Origin: Mesorhizobium sp. M1B.F.Ca.ET.045.04.1.1
GTDB taxonomy: Bacteria > Pseudomonadota > Alphaproteobacteria > Rhizobiales > Rhizobiaceae
Assembly (NCBI RefSeq): GCF_003952465.1
Contig: NZ_CP034448.1
Coordinates: 868,001-932,000 of the forward strand
Length of the DNA: 64,000 bases
Reading direction: 5' to 3'
Shown here: positions 3,310 through 64,000 of the stretch, in pieces
Layout: each line of letters starts with the position of its first letter
Numbering within the stretch: position 1 is the first letter of the stretch
Program-made: the position numbers and the translations under genes
Notes under the pieces: generated by a model
The model's database searches: none
Told to the model about the DNA's origin: nothing
The model's input: only the letters and a program-made list of their open reading frames with translations

Positions 3310-3481
3310 TTCGTCATCCACGGGCGAAGCGGGCGCGTAGACCCGAGGATCCATTCCGTGACTTCGAGGCGCTGCGACGGTGCAGAATTCTGCTCCGCTG
3401 CGCCCTGCGTCCGAGGTAACGGAATGGATCCCAGGGTCTCCGCGACGGAGCTTCGCTCCTGCTTCGCCCTGGGATGACGAC
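3310..3481. repeat. Type C repeat, short (gene-less) copy
   Basis: The gap after the GNAT gene holds two inverted arms, TTCGTCAT...GGATCCATTCCGTGAC on the left and its complement, CGGAATGGATCC...GGGATGACGA, on the right. The loop carries the palindrome GCAGAATTCTGC. It is the same arm type that flanks the GIY-YIG gene at 60434-60950. The arms have diverged from each other here, so this is an older copy. Confidence 0.8.
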
Positions 3482-5659: not shown

Positions 5660-5880
5660 GTCGATGTCGGCCCTTACTCCCTGTCACTATACGGGGAGAA
5701 ATGCCCGGCAGGGGCAATGAGGGGCGGAGCCGACCTAGCAAACAGAGGCGCCGTGACGATCGCTGCAAGCAAGGACAACGCCCGGCGTGTAATGCTGATG
5801 GCCAACGCTGGCGCCGCCCCTCATCCGCCTGCCGGCACCTTCTCCCCGTATAATGACGGGGAGAAGGGGGCTGGCCGCGG
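5660..5880. repeat. Two type A half-elements, back to back
   Basis: This 438-base gap carries a right-type arm (5668-5733: CTGTCACTATACGGGGAG, then GCCCGGCA and GAGGGGCGGAGCCGAC) and then a left-type arm (5808-5870: GGCGCCGCCCCTC, TGCCGGCA, hairpin CTCCCCGT/ACGGGGAG). The order is the reverse of a complete element, so they are probably halves of two elements with the outer halves lost. No gene is supported here. Confidence 0.7.
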
Positions 5881-7043: not shown

Positions 7044-7126
7044 TCGAGGGCCGTTGCGCGGGCCGCAGCTCGAGGAAGCACCTGCGAAAGCATCCTTCCC
7101 ATCATCCTGGAGCGAAGTGATGTCGA

Positions 7127-7188
7127 AGCTGCCAATCTCCCCCTTGCGGGGGAGATGGCCGGCAGGCCAGAGGGGGGTGCTGTCCCGC
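7127..7188. repeat. Type B repeat, single arm
   Basis: Right-type arm: CTGCCAATCTCCCCCTTGCG, then GGGGGAGAT, GGCCGGCAGGCC and GAGGGGGGTGC. It lies in the 436-base gap between the PAP2 gene and the broken propeller gene. The matching left-type arm is displaced to 7363, with a degenerate type C copy between them. Confidence 0.7.
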
Positions 7189-7226
7189 CAGCGTTTCGGA
7201 TTTCGGCACTGCAGCGGCGTTCTGAA

Positions 7227-7330
7227 GTCACGGCAGGATCCCAGGCTCTCCGCGACGGTAAGTGGCTATCGCTACGGCCGCAGCGTCGTCCCAGGGCGAA
7301 GCAGGAGCGAAGACTCCTGGGGTGGGACGA
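7227..7330. repeat. Degenerate type C repeat
   Basis: Diverged type C sequence: GTCACGGCAGGATCCCAGG and CTCCGCGACGG (7227-7258), then a second arm, GTCGTCCCAGGGCGAAGCAG (7286-7305). The arms are incomplete and no longer complementary over their length. It sits between two type B arms, as if inserted into a type B element. Confidence 0.5.
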
Positions 7331-7362
7331 TTAAGGAAAGTACTGTGGCGCCGCGTTCCTTC

Positions 7363-7460
7363 ACACCCCCTCTGTCCTGCCGGACATCTCCCCCGCAAGG
7401 GGGGAGATCAGATGTCGCTCCGGCTTTCGCCAATAGCCAACACTGCAGAGCGGGGACCTC
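7363..7460. repeat. Type B repeat, left arm plus core
   Basis: Left-type arm ACCCCCTCTGTCCTGCCGGA, hairpin CTCCCCC/GGGGGGAG, then the conserved core TTTCGCCAATAGCCAACACT ending in GCAG (7432-7446). It ends just before the stop codon of the propeller pseudogene. Confidence 0.7.
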
Positions 7461-15546: not shown

Positions 15547-15715
15547 GGGACAGCACCCCCTCTGCCCTACCGGGCATCTGCCCCGCAAGGGGGAGATTGG
15601 CAGCTCCGGCGCTCCGCTTCTCCTGTGACGTTGGAGATTGGCGAAAGCGGCGGCGACAGCTGATCTCCCCCCTTGCGGGGGAGATGTCCGGCAGGACAGA
15701 GGGGGTGCTCAAGCG
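15547..15715. repeat. Type B intergenic repeat, complete element
   Basis: Left arm GCACCCCCTCTGCCCTACCG, hairpin (GCCCCGC AAG GGGGAG), core in reverse orientation GACGTTGGAGATTGGCGAAA (15627-15646), then the inverted right arm ending GACAGAGGGGGTGC. It fills the gap between the convergent efflux operon and the dehydratase gene, where it may work as a bidirectional transcription end. Confidence 0.8.
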
Positions 15716-20114: not shown

Positions 20115-20149
20115 GGCTGCGCCGCAATGATAACCACGCAATGTCGGCG

Positions 20150-20312
20150 TGAGGCGCCCCCCTCTGCCCTGCCGGGCATCTCCCCCTCAAGGGGGAGATC
20201 AGCTGTCACGCCGCTCTTCGCCAATAGCCAATGTTGCAGGAGAGTCGCCTGCGCCGAAGCTGCCAATCTCCCCCTTGAGGGGGAGATGTCCGGCAGGACA
20301 GAGGGGGGCGCT
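20150..20312. repeat. Type B intergenic repeat, complete element
   Basis: Left arm GCGCCCCCCTCTGCCCTGCC, hairpin CTCCCCCTCAAGGGGGAG, core CTTCGCCAATAGCCAATGTT then GCAGG (20217-20240), and inverted right arm ending GGACAGAGGGGGGCGC. It lies between the convergent ArsR and ligD genes. Confidence 0.85.
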
Positions 20313-20330
20313 GTCCCTCGGCATTGAAAA

Positions 20331-35164: not shown

Positions 35165-35348
35165 TCGTCATTCTAGGGCGGAGCAAGGAGCGGAGCGACG
35201 CGCGCAGACCCTAGAATCCATTCCGTGACTTCCGAGCGCTGCCGCGGTGCAGAATTCTGCTCCGCCGCATTCTTTGATCAGGGTCACGGAATGGATTCCA
35301 GGGTCTCCGCGACGCCGCTTCGCGGCCGCTCCGCCCTGGAATGACGAG
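35165..35348. repeat. Type C repeat, short (gene-less) copy
   Basis: Left arm from GTCGTCATTCTAGGGCGGAG to CCTAGAATCCATTCCGTGAC, loop with GCAGAATTCTGC, right arm from GTCACGGAATGGATTCCAGG to CCGCCCTGGAATGACGA. The left arm is nearly identical to the left arm of the GIY-YIG element at 60434. The flanking 34986-35164 and 35349-35410 hold no gene that I can support. Confidence 0.85.
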
Positions 35349-39087: not shown

Positions 39088-39242
39088 CACACCCCCCTCT
39101 GGCCTGCCGGCCATCTCCCCCGCAAGGGGGGAGATCGGGCGTCACTTCGGGTTTCGCCAACCATCAACGTTGAGACGATGTCGGCGGAGCTGCTAATCTC
39201 CCCCCTTGAGGGGGAGATGCCCGGCAGGGCAGAGGGGGGTGC
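39088..39242. repeat. Type B intergenic repeat, complete element
   Basis: Left arm CACCCCCCTCTGGCCTGCCG, hairpin CTCCCCCGCAAGGGGGGAG, core TTTCGCCAACCATCAACGTT (39152-39171), right arm ending GGGCAGAGGGGGGTGCC. Its last bases (AGAGGGGGG, 39231-39239) sit at the correct distance to act as the ribosome site of the following GTG-start gene. Confidence 0.85.
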
Positions 39243-39245
39243 CTC

Positions 39246-39656
39246 GTGACTCCCTCGGCGATTTTGGAATCGGCGCTCTACGTCACAGACTTGCACGCTG
39301 CCGAACAATTCTACCGCGACATCATCGGCCTGGATCCGCTTGGCAAAGTCGAGGGCCGCCACGTCTTCTTCCGCTGCGGCAGCGGCGTGTTGCTGCTCTT
39401 CAACGCCGAGGCGACGAAAATCCCGCCGGCGCCCGATGCCAGGCTGGCGGTTCCGCCGCACGGAACGGCCGGCAAAGGTCATCTTTGCTTCACGGCAAGC
39501 GCCGATGAGATTGGCCAATGGCGCAAGCATCTCACGGCCAAGAACGTCGCCATCGAAAGCGATTTCGAATGGCCGCAGGGCGGACACTCGATCTATATCC
39601 GCGACCCTTCGGGCAATTCGATCGAGTTCGCCGAGCCAAGGATCTGGGGCCTGTGA
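39246..39656 (+). CDS. VOC family protein (glyoxalase/fosfomycin-resistance-like fold)
   Basis: Metal-dependent vicinal-oxygen-chelate fold protein of 136 residues: [20 protein letters not shown] and [20 protein letters not shown] in the first module, [20 protein letters not shown] and [20 protein letters not shown] in the second, with the HxxxxRDPxGNxxE pattern of the family. It may be a glyoxalase-like lyase, dioxygenase or resistance protein. The start is GTG at 39246; its Shine-Dalgarno-like AGAGGGGG comes from the end of the type B repeat. The stop overlaps the rdgB start (TGATG), so the two are coupled. Exact reaction unknown. Confidence 0.85.
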
Positions 39657-41501: not shown

Positions 41502-41665
41502 CTTCGTCATCCTCGGGCTTGACCCGAGGATCCATTCCGTGACCTCGGCCGAAGGATGCAGCGGAGCAGAATTCTGCACCGTTAGCGACGCTCTGATGTC
41601 ACGGAATGGATCCTAGGGTCTACGCTGCGTCGCTTCGCTCCTTGCTTCGCCCTAGGATGACGAAG
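41502..41665. repeat. Type C repeat, short (gene-less) copy with intact junction
   Basis: Inverted arms CTTCGTCATCCTCGGGCTTG to GGATCCATTCCGTGACC, and GTCACGGAATGGATCCTAGG to CCCTAGGATGACGAAG. The loop reads CGGCCGAAGGATGCAGCGGA, GCAGAAT|TCTGCACCG. The same loop ends, with the GIY-YIG gene between CAGAAT and TCTGCACCG, are found at 60501-60883. This copy therefore looks like the element without its gene. Confidence 0.88.
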
Positions 41666-43307: not shown

Positions 43308-43349
43308 GGAGCACCCCGAAGACGTGACCTTGCAAGATGCCAACTGTCG

Positions 43350-43543
43350 ACGTCGGCGCCGCCCCTCATTGCCCTGCCGGGCATTTCTCCCCGTATAGTG
43401 ACGGGGAGAAAGGGCTGACCGCAGCCTTGGCGCTGTCCTGTGCAACGCTGGTGATTGGTGAAACGGGCGATGAGAGCGCCCCTCTCCCCGTCACTATACG
43501 GGGAGAGGATGCCGGCAGGCAGGTGAGGGGCAGCGCAAACGTC
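43350..43543. repeat. Type A intergenic repeat, complete element
   Basis: Left arm GACGTCGGCGCCGCCCCTCA, TGCCGGGCA, hairpin CTCCCCGTATAGTGACGGGG; core in reverse orientation CAACGCTGGTGATTGGTGAA (43445-43464); right arm with CCGTCACTATACGGGGAGAG ending GAGGGGCAGCGCAAACGTC. It lies between the convergent yraN and uppP genes. Confidence 0.85.
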
Positions 43544-43573
43544 CAAAAGATGCCAATCTCACCAGATCTGAAG

Positions 43574-48497: not shown

Positions 48498-48648
48498 GCG
48501 CTGCCCCTCATCGCCCTGCCGGGCACTTCGGCCGCAGCCTTGCAGCCTTTTCTGCAACGCTGGCGATTGGCGAAACCGGTGGCGAGCTTCCCTCTCCCCG
48601 TGCCTATACGGGGAGAGGATGCCGGCAGGCAGGTGAGGGGCAGCGCCG
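48498..48648. repeat. Type A intergenic repeat, complete element with a reduced left arm
   Basis: Left arm AGCGCTGCCCCTCATCGCCC with TGCCGGGCACT but without the CCCCGT hairpin; core in reverse orientation CAACGCTGGCGATTGGCGAA (48555-48574); right arm with CCCCGTGCCTATACGGGGAG ending GTGAGGGGCAGCGCC. It fills much of the 333-base gap between mepA and glk; the remaining 150 bases before glk carry no other feature that I can name. Confidence 0.8.
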
Positions 48649-48795
48649 CCGCCGGAAAACGGGGCAAGGACGGAATTCAAAACATGAAGCGATGCCCCGA
48701 AACTGGGGCCAAACCGGCTTTCCCTTTGCAAGTCCATGCGCTAGTTCAACGAACAGACAACGGCATATTCGCCCGAACGGGGACGAACAAAGAGC

Positions 48796-53275: not shown

Positions 53276-53370
53276 GGGCTCCTCGCCTCCTTACGGCGAC
53301 CATCGGATCGATGGGCAGCCTCTCGGGCCAGTAGTTTCAGGTTTGAATTCCGTCCCGCCCTTATCTGTTC

Positions 53371-53565
53371 AGCGTTTGCGCCGCCCCTCACCTGCCTGCC
53401 GGCATCCTCTCCCCGTATAGTGACGGGGAGAGGGGCGCTCTCATCGCCGCTTTCGCCAATCGCCAGCGTTGCAAGAAGGGAGCCGGCATTGCGGCCAGCC
53501 CCTTCTCCCCGTCACTATACGGGGAGAAGTGCCCGGCAGGGCGATGAGGGGCGGCGCCGACGCCG
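53371..53565. repeat. Type A intergenic repeat, complete element
   Basis: Left arm GCGTTTGCGCCGCCCCTCAC, CTGCCGGCATC, hairpin CTCCCCGTATAGTGACGGGG; core TTTCGCCAATCGCCAGCGTT then GCAAG (53451-53475); right arm with CCGTCACTATACGGGGAGAA ending GGGGCGGCGCCGACGCC. It lies in the 415-base gap between gpmA and the tRNA; the rest of the gap holds the tRNA promoter region and no gene. Confidence 0.85.
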
Positions 53566-53690
53566 GCAATTAACATCAACAGCGCAGCTTCGCCGAAGAT
53601 CGGCCGTTCCTATCTTGAGCCGGCATCGGCAGCCCCTCGAAAAAAGCGCGTTGACACGCTTCGATTGCCCGCTTACATGAGCGCCCACCA

Positions 53691-60433: not shown

Positions 60434-60950
60434 CGCTTCGTCATTCTAGGGCGGAGCAAGGAGCGAAGCGACGCGCGCAGACCCTAGAATCCATGCCGTG
60501 ACATTGGCCGTGGAATGCAACGGTCCAGAATGGCGGCTGGCGAGAGTGCCAGCTAAGATCGCCAGATGACCGGCTTCGTTTACATGACTGCAAGCCAGAA
60601 AGGCGGCACGATCTATATCGGTGTCACCAACGACCTTGCTCGTCGGATGCCCGAGCACAAGACCGGCCAAGGCTCCAGCTTCACCAGCCGCTACGGTGTG
60701 CAGCGTTTGGTCTGGTACGAGGAACACTTCGACATCGCCGATGCCATTCAGCGTGAGACGTCATTGAAGCGCTGGCCCCGCCGATGGAAGATTGAATTGA
60801 TCGAAAAGAACAATCCGGAATGGTTCGAGCTGTTTCGCGGAATTGGCTGGTGAGAGTTCTGCACCGCGGTGGCTCTCAACCGGCACGGCATGGATTCTAG
60901 GGTCTGCGCGCGTCGCTTCGCTCCTTGCTCCGCCCTAGAATGACGAAGCG
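60434..60950. mobile_element. Type C element with GIY-YIG gene and perfect 67-bp terminal inverted repeats
   Basis: Left arm 60434-60500 and right arm 60884-60950 are exact reverse complements over 67 bases, each with an internal dyad TTCTAGGG/CCCTAGAA. Between them, the loop ends (ACATTGGCCGTGGAATGCAA, CGGTCCAGAAT and TCTGCACCG) are homologous to the loops of short type C copies. The extra 326 bases (60532-60857) hold a GIY-YIG nuclease gene. No target duplication is seen at the ends. Because the arms are still identical, the copy is recent. The same arms without the gene occur at 3310, 35165 and 41502. Confidence 0.85.
60566..60853 (+). CDS. GIY-YIG nuclease family protein (element-encoded)
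   Basis: Single-domain GIY-YIG endonuclease of 95 residues. The GIY part is degenerate (FVYMTASQKGGT), followed by IYIGVTNDLARRMPEH, where Tyr6, Tyr17, Gly19 and Arg27 correspond to conserved positions. Glu64 in IQRETSLKRWPRRWK is the metal-binding Glu, and Asn83 lies in NNPEWFELF. The YGVQRLVWYEEH segment is typical of the small UPF0213-like branch that is multi-copy in Rhizobiales. The gene sits in the loop of a type C repeat and has no clear ribosome site, so expression is probably low. I infer that it cuts or processes the repeat; that is untested. Confidence 0.88.
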   Translation: MTGFVYMTASQKGGTIYIGVTNDLARRMPEHKTGQGSSFTSRYGVQRLVWYEEHFDIADAIQRETSLKRWPRRWKIELIEKNNPEWFELFRGIGW

Positions 60951-63613: not shown

Positions 63614-63849
63614 CTCGGACCCTCCATGAAGCAAGCTCGACGCGAGTGACCAGTCTTCACAATCCTGCGCATGAGGCCGGCCGGAATCTATTCCGGGTTC
63701 ACGGATCACGCACGAGCGTCTTTTCCAGCCCTTTTCGCTTTGAAAGAAGATAGATCGTGCCAATCCGGCGGCGAGTGGGGGAATGGAATTTCACCGACTG
63801 GCGGGGAAGGGGCGGTCTGGATCGAGCATTCCAACGTCGAGTTCCTTCG

Positions 63850-64000
63850 CGCCCCCCTCTGGCCTGCCGGCCATCTCCCCCTCAAGGGGGGAGATTGGAT
63901 GTCACCACCGCCTTTCGCCAATTGTTGACGTTGCAGGAAAGGGCGCCGTCGGCGAAGCTGCTGATCTCCCCCCTTGAGGGGGAGATGGCCGGCAGGCCAG
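63850..64000. repeat. Type B intergenic repeat, cut by window end
   Basis: Left arm GCCCCCCTCTGGCCTGCCGG, hairpin CTCCCCCTCAAGGGGGGAG, core TTTCGCCAATTGTTGACGTT then GCAGG (63913-63936), right arm starting GCTGATCTCCCCCCTTGAGG and still open at 64000. The 236 bases between the CBS start and this repeat contain no gene that I can support, only the CBS promoter region. Confidence 0.85.

Follow-up and report, generated by a model that had tools for sequence, protein, structure and literature searches.

The stretch of DNA analysed here (the window, 64,000 nt) comprises bases 868001–932000 of the single-contig, 7.78-Mb genome of a Mesorhizobium-like bacterium. Flanked by genes for a DAO-family FAD oxidoreductase and for a PLP enzyme of Cys/Met metabolism, it carries a short unit in which one gene for a 95-aa GIY-YIG nuclease is surrounded by two 67-nt arms that are exact reverse complements of each other, an arrangement described by a previous sequence-only reading and confirmed here. 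The arms are an exact inverted pair, as had been claimed, and at the same time more than a terminal repeat, since each arm is itself a hairpin with most features of a CGTC-tagged REP. The features of the unit and of related pairs in the window are as follows.

60436–60948, no strand assigned: the unit as a whole, some 513 bp with CTTCGTC at one end and GACGAAG at the other, delimited by the conservation edge at 141 arm ends and by filled and unfilled alleles
60434–60500, forward strand: left 67-nt arm, in the coordinates of the sequence-only reading
60884–60950, reverse strand: right 67-nt arm, in the same coordinates
60439–60493, forward strand: left REP, with the CGTC tag at 60439–60442 and CCA at 60491–60493, based on covariation in homologous arms
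60443–60451 and 60482–60490, forward strand: stem of the left REP, with a 30-nt loop between its halves
60891–60945, reverse strand: right REP, the exact reverse complement of the left REP, tag outward
60521–60531, forward strand: left half of an inner dyad, CGGTCCAGAAT, the closing point of gene-less units
60566–60853, forward strand: gene for the 95-aa GIY-YIG nuclease, with a dN/dS of about 0.06 across its intact relatives
60856–60866, forward strand: right half of the inner dyad, GTTCTGCACCG
3312–3479, no strand assigned: gene-less inverted REP pair
35166–35346, no strand assigned: gene-less inverted REP pair, of which 35165–35229 is 97% like the left arm of the unit
41505–41662, no strand assigned: gene-less inverted REP pair, a heterodimer with one short-loop (CTTGA) REP

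The flank-to-flank inverted-repeat score of the window unit was 134 and random positions reached 32 at best (602 positions in the same 86 loci, of which L003, L004 and L006 were left off the strand of the gene and L058 and L060 are inflated by runs of N), so chance is excluded for these arms. The unit has discrete terminal inverted repeats, and its edge could be placed by aligning 141 arm ends anchored on CGTCATYC, an anchoring that makes them no independent test of the CGTC tag. Outside the anchor the letters CTT were conserved at 1.1, 1.6 and 2.0 bits, and beyond them conservation dropped to about 0.1 bit, except for a weak CC at −9/−8 of about 0.7 bit, which sets the edge at CTTCGTC. A consensus search of the unit for promoters and terminators found none, and an RNA family search of the same DNA gave nothing near the gathering score, its one match being at chance level (E 0.84).

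REPs of this kind are a known class. CGTC-tagged REPs occur in five phyla and 'apparently lack a dedicated transposase' (Di Nocera 2013, PMC3733652). According to that paper they consist of a CGTC tag, a stem starting with AT, a loop of 4–5 nt and a CCA tail; they form inverted dimers with spacers of mostly 20–100 nt, the HH arrangement being predominant; no tyrosine transposase gene was found flanked by CGTC units, links to other transposases are few and fortuitous, and it is the GTAG-class REPs that are linked to RAYTs. The window arms, which read CGTC – ATTCTAGGG – 30-nt loop – CCCTAGAAT – CCA, share with this class the tag, unpaired at one end of the hairpin, the AT-starting stem, here of 9 bp against a definition of 8–9 bp, the CCA tail and the organisation in inverted dimers. 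They depart from it in the loop, which has 30 nt in the window arms and 4–5 nt in the published class, although short-loop partners of long-loop REPs do occur (e.g. 41505–41538). S. meliloti, A. lipoferum, N. aromaticivorans and Neisseria are represented both in that paper and in our data, and where the paper found no dedicated enzyme for the CGTC REPs, we find a GIY-YIG gene between the dimer partners.

The stem is supported by covariation. In an alignment of 41 homologous arms (34 distinct, from 64 available), 99% of the cells were paired, as against at most 54% in slid versions of the alignment, and double changes occurred in four of the nine stem pairs (13 double-change cells versus 2.1 in shuffles), both AT pairs being invariant. 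The single-strand folding energy of the arms showed no excess over shuffles (z −1.08, −0.65 and +0.41), and it is for this reason that the hairpin rests on covariation. Although arm sequences diverge greatly between lineages, most of them retain the GTCA-type tag, the stem-loop and the CCA-like tail, and around the nuclease the tags, oriented by our own definition, point outward far more often than inward (57 versus 2 in the relatives, 20 versus 2 in the class draw and 12 versus 0 in the phylum draw, sets that are defined below).

The 95-aa protein matches PF01541, the GIY-YIG domain, with an E value of 7e-16. Because this and the overlapping PF10544 are the only matches to the single gene of the unit, the unit contains no transposase gene. 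Residues Y17, G19, R27 and E64 were invariant across 20 aligned nuclease sequences, and we take R27 and E64 to be the catalytic Arg and Glu of GIY-YIG nucleases. The predicted fold (model pLDDT 80) is likewise GIY-YIG, with the UPF0213 structure 1zg2 as best match (E 1e-4), followed by weaker matches to Slx1 (E 0.01 and weaker) and then to UvrC domains. A reading frame of N. gonorrhoeae, presumably Ssn, is 49.5% identical to the window protein. Relatives are labelled in databases as 'GIY-YIG nuclease family protein', 'putative endonuclease' or 'excinuclease ABC subunit C', the last of which is misleading for such nucleases. A screen of 50,697 phage records for the nuclease gave one weak partial match only, and carriage by phages was accordingly rejected.

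The gene was intact at full length in 65 of 72 units and carried stops in five of the 72. The median dN/dS was 0.062 for the 1600 pairs whose dS fell in the range 0.05–1.5, a rough value since dS is near saturation (median 0.94); judged from these codon changes, the nuclease is under purifying selection. The window's own genome holds five close copies, and among the 119 congeneric species a copy or fragment of at least 75% identity was found in 53, with up to five copies per genome.

The sequence-only reading had proposed that nuclease and arms belong together. We scored a nuclease locus as framed when its flanks gave a flank-to-flank inverted-repeat score of at least 40 or held outward-tagged REPs on both sides. 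Besides the own genome, the loci comprised 80 relatives kept from 235 found in a scan of species genomes, 71 loci drawn across the class (Alphaproteobacteria), 45 drawn across the phylum and six from the genus/family, these three sets leaving out some of the loci listed; loci with short flanks were skipped (two relatives, one class, one genus and one control locus). Four loci of the genus/family set duplicate loci of the relatives set (L180=L054, L181=L089, L178=L096 and L176=L098) and were excluded from the framed count, although they are still in the random controls; three duplicates also remain among the 72 units used for the distance, end-conservation, dN/dS and target-site analyses. Random positions and two operonic yazA genes served as negatives.

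Overall 140 of 199 distinct evaluable nuclease loci were framed versus 11 of 2030 random positions in the same loci, and the nuclease is thus usually accompanied by such arms. The individual sets gave 5/5 in the own genome (random 0/50), 71/78 in the relatives (5/780), 39/70 in the class draw (6/700), 24/45 in the phylum draw (0/450) and 4/5 in the genus/family set (0/50), the last reduced to 1/1 further distinct locus once duplicates were removed. Of the phylum-draw loci 16 belong to the class itself, and 10 of these were framed; outside the class 14 of 29 loci were framed versus 0 of 290 random positions. Even among the 52 unframed loci of the class and phylum draws (of 115), 31 had at least one REP in a flank. 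The pairing of nuclease and arms is not due to chance. A search of 241 class genomes with a 5-nt-loop REP pattern, which proved too narrow for its purpose, found the pattern in 13; the nuclease was present in 11 of these 13 and in 67 of the other 228 (Fisher p 1e-4).

Framing was also seen in nine of the 12 records of named organisms that were fetched (of 40), including S. meliloti pSymB, Rhizobium, Shinella, Novosphingobium, Sphingobium, Aeromonas and A. lipoferum. The nucleases of Planktothrix and Spirosoma have diverged palindromes to either side, which score below 40, and the R. tumorigenes nuclease is unframed. For Neisseria the framing is weak, given its high density of REPs and a best pair that draws on a distant upstream arm. 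As to where such units sit, the framed unit of the Azospirillum lipoferum plasmid AZO_p3 (L356) lies between sufB and sufC, genes of Fe-S cluster assembly. In the Planktothrix agardhii plasmid p1 (L358) the nuclease unit has an MmeI-like restriction-modification gene on one side and the DISARM gene drmA on the other.

The arms also follow the nuclease clades, as the sequence-only reading had anticipated. Across the 72 units of 90 in which both arms were recognisable, nuclease and arm distances were correlated (Mantel r 0.52, permutation maximum 0.26), and within genomes the correlation was 0.59 (43 pairs). In the clade nearest the window the stem ATTCTAGGG/CCCTAGAAT was found in 46 of 48 arms, and in other clades the stem ATCCTAGGG/CCCTAGGAT in 60 of 96. 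In genomes with several units a unit's own two arms matched each other better than those of any sampled sibling in 35 of 46 units, and in 24 of 28 when only framed units were taken (Wilcoxon p 9e-6, a value biased by the choice of scores of at least 40).

Moreover, the number of REPs rises with the number of nuclease copies. Over 119 congeneric genomes, with kinship ignored, the two were correlated with rho 0.69, or 0.62 after subtracting two arms per nuclease; median REP counts for zero to five copies, a count that includes fragments and broken copies, were 10, 16, 31, 37, 56.5 and 84.5 (n = 66, 21, 15, 9, 4 and 4 genomes). In the same genomes a second repeat family gave rho 0.32, falling to a partial rho of 0.005 given the REPs, and the correlation of REPs and nuclease was 0.65 when that family was controlled for. 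Nuclease-free genomes had a median of 10 REPs and up to 40, and since they still contain REPs, these must persist or spread without a resident nuclease.

Arms without a gene had been reported elsewhere in the window, and of that claim the relatedness stood (3312–3479, 35166–35346 and 41505–41662) and the identity did not. Gene-less units of the own genome consist of REP, spacer and REP with the inner dyad; the spacer measured 61–63 nt in 13 of 22 units (median 62 nt), and the dyad core CAGAA/TTCTG was present in 12 of the 22 by strict matching and in 20 by loose matching. The nuclease gene sits between the two halves of this same dyad, and by their sequence the dimers that lack a gene resemble the unit with the gene left out. 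That they share the subterminal sequence of the unit agrees with what had been expected of non-autonomous offspring. Solo hairpins were found by a strict pattern, which misses some of the solos described below, at 1–10 per genome in 59 of the 119 genomes.

Alleles lacking the unit exist at both orthologous sites that we examined. At the window site 21 orthologous segments were extracted from 30 loci; seven hold the unit and 14 lack it, most of the latter being occupied by a different repeat family, as a pair or a remnant. Remnants of that other family adjoin the window unit, and because the unit thus lies in or beside another repeat pair its insertion here was not a clean event. At the second site (site 2), analysed in 39 genomes with allele states taken from the sequences (G026 and G101 were unreadable), we found 10 gene units, two forward and eight inverted, one internally deleted unit, and nine solo hairpins with tags at both ends; the remaining 19 genomes had neither unit nor solo, one of them (G109) holding a hairpin remnant. 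Both junctions were identical between a solo and a unit in three pairs (G049/G010, G071/G081 and G089/G000, of which G049 is a solo and G010 a unit), and solos and units intermingle on the tree of the site-2 flanks. The two orientations at this site could reflect recombination between the arms. The identity of the two arms had been read as a sign of recent movement or gene conversion; recent movement need not follow from it, as many copies share these arms.

None of 69 units had a target-site duplication of at least 3 nt, and in eight of the 69 the ends of the unit showed a direct repeat of 2 nt, somewhat more than the 3.7 expected. Mirror-like outer flanks were seen in seven of the 69 units and in 1.8% of cross pairs; at L120 and L047 a longer outer inverted repeat, CCCTCGTGGGCAGGACGATCGCAAATGGCG, extends beyond the REP arms, as if an older palindrome had been entered.

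On these grounds we read 60436–60948 as a pair of inverted CGTC-type REPs with their own GIY-YIG gene, whose product is predicted to cut the hairpins and likely spreads both the unit and the gene-less pairs, a reading to which we give a probability of about two in three (0.66). The sequence-only reading, which had cast a GIY-YIG enzyme in the role of a RAYT, is supported in that framing, the match of arms to clades and the unfilled alleles all agree with it, so that none of the three outcomes it had named as refuting came about, and from these we infer movement. The enzyme would nick REP hairpins at the base of the stem while they are single-stranded, as might happen on the lagging strand. If both REPs were cut behind the 3' half-stem and the ends rejoined, a solo hairpin of the kind found at site 2 would remain, and the reverse reaction would return the gene into a solo. 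GIY-YIG enzymes hydrolyse DNA and we know of no strand transfer by such enzymes, so we infer cutting followed by repair; since no other domain was found in the 95 aa, the ends would be joined by host repair or replication. A cut at this place in both REPs predicts exactly the junction of the solos, which is suggestive only, because deletion between 9-nt direct repeats gives the same junction.

The main rival is homing into solos, in which the nuclease cuts existing solo or dimer REPs and its gene is copied in by repair, the REPs multiplying by other means and themselves driving nuclease number. Site 2, with its nine solos and 10 units intermingled and joined by matched junctions, is what such a process would leave; a palindromic target would explain both unit orientations, and REPs in nuclease-free genomes fit as well. 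Against this, the 14 unfilled segments of the window site hold no CGTC REP of the window type that could have been the target, the gene-less dimers resemble deletion products of the unit, and solos are few by the strict pattern, which misses some of those at site 2; we regard homing as unlikely. We think it distinctly unlikely that the nuclease is a partner of the REPs and not their mover, recognising them for processing of single-stranded DNA or for limiting DNA uptake, with the REPs protecting or marking the gene. The strong purifying selection would suit such a function, as would the work on Ssn, which is said to show site-specific cleavage of single-stranded DNA and a role in transformation; the patchy presence (53 of 119 species), the presence of up to five copies, the broken copies and the site polymorphism fit a mobile gene, and under the partner reading no dose relation with gene-less REPs would be expected.

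That the nuclease is a passenger of REPs and units moved by a RAYT or other transposase has its precedent in the GTAG-class REPs linked to RAYTs, whereas the same paper found no tyrosine transposase gene flanked by CGTC units (PMC3733652). A RAYT or transposase as mover was also rejected for the own genome, whose only Y1_Tnp match is interrupted by a stop and lacks arms of this kind. With framing of the nuclease recurring across families and outside the class, and target-site duplications of at least 3 nt absent, the passenger reading is very improbable. The view of framing as a chance effect, due to densely placed REPs or to an intergenic hotspot common to both, can appeal to the nesting of the window unit with another repeat family and to the clustering of REPs in some genomes such as Neisseria, but 11 of 2030 random positions against 140 of 199 loci, together with the better match of arms within than between units in 35 of 46, make its probability practically negligible.

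The combination of parts resembles several known systems. RAYT/TnpA-REP with its REPs and REPINs likewise has a small nuclease gene between inverted REP hairpins and many gene-less dimers; it differs in its Y1/HUH transposase, where the present unit has a GIY-YIG enzyme (PF01541), and in its GTAG tag, here CGTC, while the present nuclease has several copies per genome and is patchy among species. Ssn is, like the window nuclease, a small stand-alone GIY-YIG protein, and a 2025 paper reportedly describes it in Neisseria as a family of site-specific nucleases for single-stranded DNA with a role in transformation. GIY-YIG homing endonucleases such as I-TevI are selfish mobile genes, possibly inserted at their own target, and share with the window unit the domain, the probable selfish mobility and the possible insertion at an own target; in the window unit, however, no intron was seen and no second domain was found in the 95 aa, and it has terminal palindromes and gene-less derivatives. 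UPF0213/YazA provides the nearest solved fold (1zg2), yet B. subtilis yazA is unframed, unlike the window nuclease. A MITE and its autonomous insertion sequence also have terminal inverted repeats and come in gene-bearing and gene-less forms, from which the window unit differs in having no transposase and no target-site duplication of at least 3 nt.

Among the literature matches listed, judged by title, start of abstract and word counts, no paper linked GIY-YIG nucleases to REP- or MITE-type repeats. A GIY-YIG enzyme is likely the missing partner that spreads CGTC-type REPs. The recurring, arm-matched gene makes the question of the CGTC-REP enzyme, open since 2013 (PMC3733652), testable with one protein and one oligonucleotide. 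If the reading is true, the spreading of REPs evolved more than once with unrelated nucleases, and proteins known only by labels such as 'GIY-YIG nuclease family protein' would gain a role.

Other GIY-YIG loci had been intended as a negative control (L006 and L267–L279, 13 of 14 evaluable), a use that was rejected because six of the 13 had an inverted repeat scoring at least 40, formed by other palindromes; a strict CGTC detector was positive in 0 of the 13. Loci L267, L270–L272, L275, L277, L365 and L369 hold other GIY-YIG proteins, mostly of one GWSRAKKEALI-like subfamily, framed by other palindromes. The palindromes around these proteins are mostly CCTGAG...TCGAAGG-like; two Methylobacterium records have another GIY-YIG gene framed in the same manner, and a Sphingomonas record is unframed though it has a CCTGAG...TCGAAGG-like palindrome upstream. 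No framing repeats were found at the operonic yazA genes of B. subtilis and a Radiobacillus relative, which lie between trmNF and rsmI. Since some of the other GIY-YIG loci and those of Methylobacterium are framed too, the link between lone GIY-YIG genes and palindromes may be general. At somewhat less than even odds we extend this to the proposal that REP spreading has a second engine, of independent evolutionary origin, in lone GIY-YIG nucleases, each subfamily with its own palindrome (CGTC-type or CCTGAG...TCGAAGG-type), and that many bacterial palindromes without a known mover are their miniature elements; if so, units of about 500 bp may be the smallest autonomous mobile units.

Finally, the window contains further inverted pairs of two other families. 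The second family (CCCCCTCTGGCCTGCCGGCCATCTCCCCC...) is found at 7118–7441, 15555–15715, 20139–20326, 39090–39248 and 63849–64000, and repeats of this family often lie beside or around GIY-YIG units. The third family (CCGCCCCTCATCCGCCTGCCGGCACCTTCTCCCCGT...) is found at 597–798, 5666–5869, 43336–43551, 48498–48660 and 53359–53577.
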